This document shows, in pieces, positions 1,407 to 5,525 of a DNA stretch of 49,718 nt (the stretch's first letter is position 1; every line of letters starts with the position of its first letter). The notes under the pieces were generated by a model. It had not been told where the DNA came from. It searched no databases and was given only the letters and a program-made list of their open reading frames with translations. Position numbers and translations under genes: made by a program. This DNA comes from Opitutales bacterium (GTDB lineage: Bacteria; Verrucomicrobiota; Verrucomicrobiia; Opitutales; UBA953). The stretch lies in contig JAEMQU010000011.1 in assembly GCA_016463705.1 (NCBI GenBank), forward strand, positions 1 through 49,718, given 5' to 3'.

Positions 1407-3269
1407 GCAGTGGCACTCATCTCACGCAGATCCATCGACGACTTAAGACAACGAGCTGATATTGTAGCTCTGGCAGGCGACTACACGCAAATGAAACAAC
1501 GCGGACGTGATTGGTGGGGACTGAGCCCTTTTAAATCCGAAAAGAGTCCGTCGTTTAAAGTAAATCCTGAAACGGGTCTGTGGTATTGCTTTAGCACTCA
1601 ACAAGGCGGCGATGTTTTTAAATTAGTGACCGCCCGCGAAGGCCTAGATTTTCCTGAAGCGGTGGAGCGCGTAGCGATGCGCTTCGGCGTCGAACTAGAA
1701 TACGAACAATCCTCCCAAACTACCGAAGGTCGCTCACTGCGCAGTCAACTATTGGAAATCCACCAACTGATTGCCGATTACTGGCATCGTTGTTTTCTGG
1801 AAGACGCCCAACACAGCGAGTGGATGAAAAATTACTGGATTGAAAAAAGAAAGTTCAATCTGTCTGTCGCTGAAGATTTCGGTATCGGGTTTGCGCCGAT
1901 TGATGACTCGAAATTAATCCCCGGATTATTAAAAAAGAATTTCACGAAAGAAGCGATTGCCGGAACAGGTTTATTTTTTGGCGTCGATAAACAACCTGAT
2001 CCCATTCGCTGGCGTTGTCGTTTTCGCGGACGCCTCGTCATCCCCATTCGCGATATCCAAGGTCGCGTCATCGCTTTTACCGCACGAACATTGGATATTA
2101 CGCCCCAGGACGACCCTTCGCGCGAAGCCAAGTATGTAAATTCGCCGGAGACTGATTTATTTAAAAAATCGCGGACGGTCTTTAATTTGGATCGTGCTCG
2201 GGCGAATCGAAAAGACGAAGAACCTTTCGTACTCGTCGAAGGTCAGCTCGACGCAATCCGCTGCCACACCGTCGGCATTCACGGGGTCATCGCCGCCCAA
2301 GGCACCGCCGTCACCGAAGAACACCTCGCCCAGTTACGTCGCTTCACCAAACAGTTAGTCGTCTTCTTAGACTCGGATGCGGCCGGACAAAAAGCCGCCC
2401 TTCGTCTCCTCCCCATCGGCCTCCGTGAAGGTCTCGATATTCGCTTCCTCTCTCTGCCGGGTGGTAAAGATCCGGATGAATATTTTTCGACACACAGCAT
2501 CGAGTCTTGGCCCGACCTCTTAAAAACTGCCCGAACCGCCATGCGCTTCTGCGTACAGTCCATTATTCCTGAAGGGAGTACGACCAGCCCACTGGCCCAA
2601 AGACTCTCGCTGCTCGAAAGTATTTTCCCCATTGTGGAACAAGCAGGCGCCGAGGAAATTGTCCGCGAGGCACTCAATGAGGCTGCGCGGCACGCCGGCA
2701 TCGGTATTCGCGAGATGCATATGGCCTATGAACGTCATTTGGCTAATTCAGCATCCCGCCGACCAGCCGCCCAGTTAGCCACCGCCGAACCGGTCGAAGT
2801 CCCCGTTGTCAAGGGGGGGGGCTTGACAACTCCGGAAGAAGACTTAATACATGTCTTATTGAGGCATGAACAATACTTTATCCCCGTCTCCGAAGCCCTA
2901 CCCCTTGAGTGGATTGATGTTAGTTATCGAGGAGGCAGTTTATTGCTCGCCCTATTAAACGAAGCAGTGAACGGACATTTCAAAGGAATCCGTGAAGCCG
3001 TCAACGTACTCGATCCAGAACTCCAATCCGAAGCCGCTAAATTAACTTCCCACCAGACCCAAGATCAGGACCAAGAAGGAGAATTAAAAAGTAGAATCAA
3101 CAGCATTCTCAAAGCCTTTCACCAAAGACGTATCCAATTTCAGAACCGACAAATCGACGCCCAAATCGCCTCAACGGCTTCCACCGAAGTCGAAAAACTT
3201 AATTCCTTACTAGCCGAAAAGATTAAACTACGCAAAGAAAGCCAGACTCCCCCGTCGCTGCCCAAATAG
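1401..3269 (+). CDS. dnaG: DNA primase DnaG
   Basis: 622 residues; synthesises RNA primers at the replication fork. The order is the usual one. A CHC2-like N-terminal domain occupies residues 1-100. The catalytic core follows, with a TOPRIM segment (LVEGQLDAI near residue 282, LVVFLDSDAAGQKAA near 320). After a linker at about 440-475 comes a helical C-terminal domain that normally binds DnaB helicase. The zinc site is degenerate: the usual Cys, His, Cys, Cys positions read Ser42, Lys45, Cys63, Thr66 (SPFKSEKSPSF ... WYCFST). The linker is encoded by a G9 run inside a perfect inverted repeat. Start is TTG 1401; GTG 1410 is an equal alternative, and neither has a Shine-Dalgarno sequence. rpoD follows after 114 bases, the conserved dnaG-rpoD pairing. 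Confidence 0.95.
   Translation: MTAVALISRRSIDDLRQRADIVALAGDYTQMKQRGRDWWGLSPFKSEKSPSFKVNPETGLWYCFSTQQGGDVFKLVTAREGLDFPEAVERVAMRFGVELEYEQSSQTTEGRSLRSQLLEIHQLIADYWHRCFLEDAQHSEWMKNYWIEKRKFNLSVAEDFGIGFAPIDDSKLIPGLLKKNFTKEAIAGTGLFFGVDKQPDPIRWRCRFRGRLVIPIRDIQGRVIAFTARTLDITPQDDPSREAKYVNSPETDLFKKSRTVFNLDRARANRKDEEPFVLVEGQLDAIRCHTVGIHGVIAAQGTAVTEEHLAQLRRFTKQLVVFLDSDAAGQKAALRLLPIGLREGLDIRFLSLPGGKDPDEYFSTHSIESWPDLLKTARTAMRFCVQSIIPEGSTTSPLAQRLSLLESIFPIVEQAGAEEIVREALNEAARHAGIGIREMHMAYERHLANSASRRPAAQLATAEPVEVPVVKGGGLTTPEEDLIHVLLRHEQYFIPVSEALPLEWIDVSYRGGSLLLALLNEAVNGHFKGIREAVNVLDPELQSEAAKLTSHQTQDQDQEGELKSRINSILKAFHQRRIQFQNRQIDAQIASTASTEVEKLNSLLAEKIKLRKESQTPPSLPK
2805..2830. repeat. Perfect 9-bp inverted repeat enclosing a G tract in dnaG
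   Basis: GTTGTCAAG at 2805-2813 and CTTGACAAC at 2822-2830 are exact reverse complements separated by eight G. The uninterrupted G run is nine bases long (2813-2821). It encodes Lys-Gly-Gly-Gly at residues 471-474, in the linker before the helicase-binding domain. Losing one G gives a TGA immediately after residue 474. Gaining one G gives a TGA after about 489 residues. As printed, the frame stays open through the tract. Confidence 0.8.
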
Positions 3270-3317
3270 AAAACTAAAATAAGCTCAGTTTAACTCAAAA
3301 TTCCGCCCTCGCCGTTT

Positions 3318-3345
3318 TTGCTCACTACCGAGCCCTTAGTATATA
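3318..3345 (+). promoter_or_regulatory. Putative sigma-70 promoter of rpoD
   Basis: TTGCTC at 3318-3323 is followed after 16 bases by TATATA at 3340-3345, about 38 bases before the rpoD ATG. Both hexamers match the sigma-70 consensus at four of six positions. This is the best promoter-like pair in the 114-base dnaG-rpoD gap. Confidence 0.4.
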
Positions 3346-3383
3346 GAGGGTAACTTAAATTTAAACCCATCCACTTTCCCAAC

Positions 3384-5525
3384 ATGCCCGAATCCAAAAA
3401 TAACAAAAAAGCTCACTCCAAAAAACCTGCTAAACCTGCGGCTAAGCCCGTCGCGGTAAAAGCGGTGGCCAAACCCGCAGCCAAAGCACCGGCGAAGCCC
3501 CTGGCCAAACCAGCAAGCAAACCGGCTATCGTAAACACGAAGGCGTCCCCAGCCAAAGTGGCACCCACCAAGTTAGCGCCAACCAAAGTGGCACCCGCTA
3601 AGGTGGCCCCTGTTATCGCATCCAAGCCAGTCGCCGCCAAGCCGGTGATTGATCAGAAAATCATAGCGAAAATCGCCCCTAAGCCTATTCCGTTTGGTAA
3701 AGACAAAGCGGTCAGCGTTCCGACTATACCTAAGGATGTTAACGCCAAGGTTCAGATCCTCGTCGGACTCTCCAAAAAGAATGGCTACGTCACCGTTCAA
3801 AATATTAACGAAGTCATCCCCGATAGCGCGACCGATGCCGAGTTAATCGAGAGCATCATGAACATTCTCGATAATTTAGAAATTAAATTACTCGATGAAG
3901 AAGAAGTCGAAATGTATCAGAAGAAAATCGACGAGTCCGAAGAAGAAGCAGCGCGCACGGTCCCCGCAGATGCGCCTTACGATCCGTTCAATGTTTATTT
4001 AAAGCAAATGGGCCACAAGCCCCTACTCACTCGCGAACAAGAAGTCGAGATTTCCAAACGCATCGAAGATACGGAATTACGCGCCCAAGAATTCCTCTTC
4101 TCCTGCTGGCTGACTCTGCCCTACCAACTCGATCTCGCCCAAAAGGTTTTCAAAAAGGAAGAACGTTTTGATAAAGTCGTCATCGATAAAAAAGTAGAGT
4201 CGCGTGATAATTATTATAAAAACTTACCCAAGGCGATTGATGAATGTATCAAACTGGAAGAACGTCTCGAAAAAGCTTGGAAAAAATATAACGAAGAAAA
4301 AGAAGAAGGCAAAAAAGCGAAACTACGTGAAGCTTATCGTAAAATCGAATTAACCAGCAAAGAAGGATGTAAAGACATCCTCCGTAAATTCTTCTTCAAG
4401 ATGAAGCTCTTCGAAGATTGGTTGGAATTACCTGAATTAAAGGCCGACCTCGAAGATTGTCGTCTTCTAGCTAATCCAGCGCCGATTATGCGCGGTCCGG
4501 TGCGTGCTAAACTCGCTCGCCGTCCCGAAGTCTCCTCTACCCGAGCCCAAGAGATCGAACGTCGCTGGCGCATGTCTCCAACCGAACTGCTCCACTGCGT
4601 ACGTTCCGTGCGTAAACATTTAGACGAAGCACAAAAAGCAAAAACCGAAATGGTTGAGCACAACTTGCGCTTAGTGATTTCCATCGCCAAGAAATATCAA
4701 AACCGCGGACTGCTCTTCACCGACCTCATCCAAGAAGGTAACATGGGCTTGGTTAAAGCGGTGGAAAAATTCGAATATCGTCGGGGCTATAAATTCTCGA
4801 CCTACGCCACCTGGTGGATTCGCCAGGCAATCACCCGCTCGATTGCGGACCAAGCTCGTACTATCCGCATTCCTGTTCACATGATTGAAACACTGAATAA
4901 AGTGATGCAGGTACAAAAACAATTAACGCAGGAATTAGGTCACGAACCTACCGCCGAAGAAGTCGCGAACGAAATGAACATGGCCATCGATCGCGTCCAA
5001 CAAATCATGAAGATGGCCCAACAGCCAATCTCGTTACAATCACCAGTCGGTGACGGTGAAGACACATCCTTGGGCGATTTCATTGAAGATAAATCAGCGG
5101 AAAACCCCAGTGATACGGCCTCGACTCGTCTCTTACGGGAGAAGATTGATTTCGTTCTGCACTCCTTAGCGGAACGCGAGAAAGAAGTTTTAATTCTCCG
5201 TTTCGGTTTACTCGACGGCGTCCAACGCACCCTTGAAGAAGTCGGTCGTCACTTTAAAGTGACTCGTGAACGTATCCGCCAAATTGAAGCCAAAGCCCTC
5301 CGCAAGATGCGTCACCCCACCCGTATGCGTAAACTCCAAGGTATGTTCGAAGGTGAACTCGATACTTCCGGTCCTGGCTTTGATAACTTCGTGGATGCTG
5401 AAACCGATCCCGATAAATTAAGCGAAATGGACAAGCCAAGTGCGACTCTCGAAGCATTCCGTCAGAAGAACAATGAGAGCCGAGACGCAATCCGTCTACT
5501 ACAGCAACAAAATCAGCAGCTCTAA
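3384..5525 (+). CDS. rpoD: Primary RNA polymerase sigma factor RpoD (sigma-70) with basic low-complexity N terminus
   Basis: 713 residues. Residues 1-110 are an unusual Lys/Ala/Pro-rich tail with repeats such as [19 protein letters not shown], including a 14-base direct repeat at 3554-3567 and 3584-3597. Sigma region 1.1 follows (about 120-180, [17 protein letters not shown]), then region 1.2 ([11 protein letters not shown]) and a long non-conserved region rich in charged residues. Region 2 begins near 423 ([17 protein letters not shown], then [17 protein letters not shown]), then region 3, then the region 4 helix-turn-helix at about 617-645 ([17 protein letters not shown]). About 50 acidic or polar residues trail after it. 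It recognises -35/-10 promoters. There is no Shine-Dalgarno sequence before the ATG. Its stop codon is followed directly by the start of a lipoprotein gene. Confidence 0.97.

Follow-up and report, generated by a model that had tools for sequence, protein, structure and literature searches.

The heat-shock promoter of rpoD in Escherichia coli comprises a C-rich stretch followed by CTTGA at -35, and in Thermus slippage on the A9 run of dnaX gives rise to two products. It has long been asked how bacteria match the supply of primase to that of the main sigma factor, two proteins whose genes stand together in very distant lineages. In the E. coli rpsU-dnaG-rpoD operon the rpoD heat-shock promoter lies inside dnaG (Taylor et al. 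1984, cited in PMC2824700), and the portion of PMC2824700 considered here places rpoD/sigA promoters inside dnaG in both the E. coli and the B. subtilis operons and describes several internal promoters for the sigA operons of B. subtilis and Staphylococcus epidermidis. Here we compare with these systems a site inside dnaG of an Opitutales bacterium, contained in a stretch of 49,718 nucleotides that was analysed as a whole and is referred to below as the window.

A palindrome in the linker codons of dnaG

The dnaG gene (DNA primase) occupies positions 1410-3269 of the plus strand, from a conserved GTG start, whose column is invariant in the alignment, to the stop at 3269, and its product contains the Pfam domains Zn_ribbon_DnaG, DNAG_N and Toprim. 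Within its codons, positions 2805-2830 read GTTGTCAAGGGGGGGGGCTTGACAAC, i.e. GTTGTCAAG-G8-CTTGACAAC, a palindrome assigned to neither strand, with a genus-invariant core at 2807-2828. An earlier note, made from the letters of the window, had reported a nine-G tract inside a perfect inverted repeat at this place, and so it is found: the G9 run lies at 2813-2821 (plus strand), the arms are perfect 9-mers separated by an 8-base spacer, and the first G of the run belongs to the left arm. The note had further placed the repeat in the linker that precedes the helicase-binding domain, which the structural analysis bears out. In the AlphaFold2 model of the 615-residue query, pLDDT is below 50 at residues 448-468 (a disordered linker), the element corresponds approximately to residues 462-470 at the end of this stretch, and a helix begins at 471. 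The C-terminal domain that follows (codons 2832-3266, plus strand) matches the solved DnaG helicase-binding domains 2r6c_G, 4im9, 5z51, 4esv and 7t22 in Foldseek (prob up to 0.97, E about 0.1-1). At the other end of the protein, the zinc ribbon (window 1410-1700) has lost all but one of the four CHC2 zinc ligands (SPFK...YCFST vs CPFH...CFGC), in the window as well as in all aligned Opitutae relatives, while the outgroups have kept them.

A 9-bp inverted repeat with a loop of 4-12 bases is not rare by itself, as about 1.75 are expected per window under a Markov model; the window contains no G/C run of at least 7 other than the G9. It is through comparison that the element stands above chance, the 22 letters of its core being identical, 22 out of 22, in the sequences of the whole genus, a genus of lake bacteria, two genomes with a G10 apart. 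We fetched 64 loci; the relatives are all genome assemblies, mostly metagenomic, and since the species are related the counts are not independent. TGTCAAG-Gn-CTTGACA is letter-perfect in all 48 genus genomes in which the dnaG linker is assembled, with G9 in 46 of them and G10 in two (G198 and G233); in the seven genus genomes devoid of the core, the corresponding portion of dnaG is missing from the assembly as well. The core occurs once per dnaG and once per genome. No second place was found for the palindrome with one mismatch across the genus genomes, nor for the core with up to three mismatches elsewhere in the window's own genome. A dispersed repeat or mobile element was rejected on the grounds of the single core copy per genome and the lack of a phage match, and a LexA site was likewise rejected, as its presence in a single copy speaks against a regulon.

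The conservation exceeds what the protein would impose. Among 302 degenerate dnaG columns with an invariant amino acid only 11 are invariant at the codon level, and 7 of these are the contiguous codons of the element; the number of synonymous changes per column of this kind, counted on a tree of 41 species, has a mean of 8.0 and is 0 in the columns of the element. In addition, the codon preceding the core ends with T in all species, even though the encoded residue varies (V/P/L/I/F/A/D/T). The invariant codons of the core, together with the fixed T of a variable codon, indicate a constraint that acts on nucleotides, and we regard such a constraint on the element as practically certain. As judged from the alignment, the nucleotide pressure coincides exactly with the run and the seven-base arm on either side of it; the AC that follows on the right is kept because the Thr encoded there is invariant.

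The half-site word in the dnaG leader and a candidate rpoD promoter

Genome-wide pattern searches reveal that the word forming one half of the palindrome recurs immediately upstream of dnaG. The leader of the window's dnaG carries two plus-strand boxes of CCCCTTGACA, box 1 at 1383-1392 (7-mer CTTGACA at 1386-1392) and box 2 at 1397-1406 (7-mer at 1400-1406). In members of the genus the leader has two CTTGACA seven bases apart, mostly behind a C tract, and the second is always CCCCTTGACA; 43 of the 55 genus genomes have the tandem CTTGACA-N7-CTTGACA, once each, just 5' of dnaG wherever its place is stated. The window's genome (1.47 Mb) has three copies of CCCCTTGACA, all at dnaG, the third and last being the minus strand of the left half-site (2807-2816), i.e. 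the left arm with the adjoining G. The word thus recurs at control regions of dnaG in a fixed geometry, as is typical of an operator. In the clade L034-L036 the start-proximal boxes are missing while the internal element is kept; the leader of this clade has a TGTCAAGGGG...CCCCTTGAC pair farther up. This inverted pair, TGTCAAGGG(G)-N-CCCCTTGAC, lies about 110 nt before dnaG, right after the stop of the upstream gene. A genus-conserved block, ATTGGGAAT-ATTT-CG-TTGC, is located in the window at 1300-1385, 5' of the leader boxes, and is probably the dnaG promoter, though it lacks a clear -35.

The recurrence of the word could also reflect control at the RNA level, with the coding UGUCAAGGGG pairing with CCCCUUGACA near the dnaG start, or with the mRNA hairpin itself being bound. 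The complementarity to the leader boxes is perfect over 10 bp (predicted energies of -36.9 kcal/mol for the duplex and -11.6 kcal/mol for the hairpin), and the 10-mer is present nowhere else in the genome. Against this, L034-L036 have lost the start-proximal boxes and kept the element, no compensatory changes were found anywhere among the relatives, and the versions of the site in sister genera (see below) hold only the top-strand half or precede rpoD. We regard RNA-level control as improbable, if not negligibly so.

The other half of the palindrome may serve rpoD. The right half-site CTTGACA (2822-2828, plus strand) holds a perfect -35 hexamer, TTGACA, at 2823-2828, and dnaG is located directly 5' of the gene of the primary sigma factor on the same strand (rpoD, 3384-5525, plus strand), which is the proposed target of a putative internal promoter. 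The dnaG-rpoD gap (3270-3383, plus strand) measures 114 nt in the window and about 100 nt in the two relatives closest to it; in the remaining species it has only 4-17 nt, which leaves no room there for an rpoD promoter. The candidate -10 in the window, TAATAC at 2845-2850 of the plus strand, follows at a spacing of 16 and is weak, while in most relatives TTGACA is followed by GATACT or GATATT at a spacing of 17. The codons at this position are unusual: Ile is encoded by ATA in 35 of 37 species, compared to 28 out of 1550 other Ile codons, and no other dnaG column behaves in this way. Where Ile is replaced, a Leu codon CTA or TTA mostly stands directly in front, which shifts the TA one base earlier (spacing 16), and A-ending Leu codons are used here even in genomes where they make up 0-3% of Leu codons; L034-L036 are an exception, with GACATT at a spacing of 17. 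The promoter scores are mildly high relative to synonymous recoding (p about 0.05-0.2 per species, the species not being independent). Hexamers at a spacing of 16-18 nt and under nucleotide selection are thus found inside dnaG, the window species having a weak -10, and an internal rpoD promoter is somewhat more probable than its absence in most of the genus. In the window's clade, in which the internal -10 is weak, the gained dnaG-rpoD gap has a TATATA-like site of its own. The window species, like several clades, combines a weak -10 with a palindrome that is still perfect, so that the palindrome is not explained as a -35 alone.

Sister genera possess different versions of the site. Two of them carry C5/C9-TTGACAAC at the dnaG codons of the element: in genus g2 we found CTCCCCCTTGACAAC (C5-TTGACA), followed by TTTAAT at a spacing of 17, and in one g5 genome (G245) C9-TTGACAAC, in both cases with no G run. 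In genus g4 (G146) a CTTGTCAAG-CCCCCCA-CTTGACAAG palindrome lies about 50 nt before rpoD, while its dnaG, on a different contig from rpoD, has no such site. The closest sister, g3, lacks both the site in the dnaG codons and the one in the rpoD leader. What the genera appear to share is a C/G tract with CTTGACA near dnaG-rpoD, the coding-strand G run being peculiar to the genus of the window. The CCCCC found at this place in sister genera speaks against an internal translation start, in which AAGGGGG would act as a Shine-Dalgarno sequence for an in-frame TTG and yield a free helicase-binding domain, the hairpin hiding the signal. Such a sequence does lie a few nucleotides before an in-frame TTG, and Met-Thr-Thr would begin the domain; in the window, however, only 4 of 35 long ORFs have a Shine-Dalgarno match in front, which is less than the background of 20%, and we consider an internal start very unlikely.

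In the reading that we favour, the element serves the dnaG-rpoD (macromolecular synthesis) operon as a control site at the level of nucleotides, accommodated within the DnaG linker codons. The right arm would provide the -35 of a sigma70-type rpoD promoter inside dnaG, and the palindrome TGTCAAG-G8-CTTGACA over this -35 would be an operator that has the C-tract-TTGACA word of the leader boxes as one of its halves; a single putative DNA-binding regulator would then set the synthesis of primase and sigma factor jointly, and part of the G run (2813-2821) would provide the minus-strand half-site with its C tract. This reading rests on the nucleotide constraint, the restriction of the word to dnaG, the sister versions at dnaG or rpoD, and the rare codons at the -10 position, from which we infer the transcription start, the existence of a regulator that represses or activates, and a function of the G run as a C tract. 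It explains the arms, the recurring word and the confinement of that word to the operon, as well as the g4 site at rpoD and part of the G run. The nine invariant G and the CAT codon at 2865-2867 are not fully explained by it, and full invariance of nine G exceeds the usual need of a spacer; L034-L036 without start-proximal boxes, g3 without either site, and the modest promoter scores count against it. We give an even chance to the combination of an rpoD promoter inside dnaG with an overlapping operator whose putative regulator also binds the dnaG leader; for the operator and regulator taken by themselves the balance falls just short of even. If correct, a word nearly confined to the dnaG-rpoD operon and frozen genus-wide in an essential gene would mark a dedicated control site, and its binding factor could be captured directly.

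A heat-shock sigma -35 was considered and rejected: C-tract-CTTGA resembles one, but the upstream regions of groES lack the box. The CTTGACA box was absent from six of the seven groES loci examined, the other (L200) having been misplaced by crude anchoring. These loci (L196-L202 except L200, including L197 from the window's genome) have a conserved TTTGGCAT-N-TTCTGCA-like site with the sigma54 -24/-12 pattern before groES, which suggests that the chaperonin genes of the genus are under sigma54 control.

The G run and the slippage hypothesis

The earlier note likened the G run to programmed slippage systems such as dnaX, with a primase devoid of the helicase-binding domain as the outcome; RNA polymerase or the ribosome would slip on the run and make this form as a fraction of the product. 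The anatomy, the domain border and the reading frames on which this proposal was built all hold: with one G less the sequence reads GGG-GGG-GCT-TGA, and with one G more TGA follows after 15 codons. In no species does either slipped frame exceed 15 codons, the CAT that creates the later TGA is invariant, and the site falls exactly at the domain border. The comparison of the linker in close relatives, which the note had called for, reveals the G run in every genus member with an assembled linker and its lack in sister genera; a slippery run is thus conserved among relatives, within the genus only, and with G9 in 46 of 48 genomes the two G10 assemblies leave slippage a minor possibility.

The proposed function fares less well, as the data favour another role. 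Conservation is not confined to the run, to stimulators, or to the alternative frame and its stop, and slippage leaves unexplained the invariant arms, the fixed T of the variable codon, the leader boxes and the sister sites without a run. The tail peptide of the +1 G frame shows no conservation; at 10 of 49 loci this frame stops earlier, with the CAT still in place. In a transcriptional mechanism the hairpin could not be the upstream stimulator, since its 3' arm is not yet made while the run is synthesized, and in a ribosomal one its 5' arm would be inside the ribosome while the run is decoded. Moreover, transcriptional slippage in bacteria is documented chiefly at A or T runs, which are the runs treated in the relevant portion of PMC1088944. 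All in all, we consider programmed slippage unlikely, and still more so a dual role, in which an operator/-35 tying rpoD to dnaG would be combined with a slippery run making a fixed fraction of truncated primase; were it true, the G10 genomes would survive by slipping back into frame.

Replicative phase variation, the other option raised for the run, would find its support in the G10 of G198 and G233. In the corresponding loci (L039 and L051) the additional G frameshifts dnaG and the remainder of the gene is intact; it may be an assembly or read error in the homopolymer or a real variant. As the gene is essential, the arms are invariant and the run length is fixed in all other genomes, phase variation is hardly credible.

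The His codon CAT at 2865-2867 (plus strand) would lie near +10 of a putative internal transcript. It is present in 47 of 47 aligned sequences, while the codon varies in other conserved His columns. The codon creates an ATG and, in the slipped frame, a TGA. It was rejected as proof of a selected stop, as it stays in species with an earlier one. A hidden overlapping gene starting from the conserved ATG in CATGA was also rejected: the ORF has 26-30 codons in most species and its protein is not conserved.

Comparison with described systems

Like dnaX of Thermus and E. coli, the site has a homopolymer where two domains of a replication protein meet, and a slip there would give a shorter form. It differs in that the G run is embedded in an invariant palindrome, its word recurs in the leader, and sister genera have versions without a run; homopolymers that are conserved within coding regions are not necessarily slippage devices. 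With the CIRCE-HrcA and HAIR-HspR systems it shares an inverted repeat with arms of 7-9 bp and a spacer of 7-9 bp, located near essential genes. The CIRCE and HAIR operators have different sequences, and the palindrome described here, in contrast, has a single copy in each genome and lies within a coding region, with no CTTGACA box before groES.

The sigA operons of B. subtilis and S. epidermidis are similar in that extra promoters in or just after dnaG drive the sigma-factor gene; those promoters belong to other sigma classes (sigmaB, sigmaH), and the portion of PMC2824700 considered here describes no conserved palindrome in the coding region. The E. coli operon is not known to have a palindrome, a G9 or matching boxes in the dnaG leader, and its internal promoter is a heat-shock one, whereas that of the window is a predicted, sigma70-like promoter whose link to heat shock is unsupported by the groES regions. 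The E. coli macromolecular synthesis operon nevertheless shares the C-rich stretch followed by CTTGA at the -35, and it has the same arrangement, with dnaG beside rpoD and a promoter of the sigma-factor gene within the dnaG codons.
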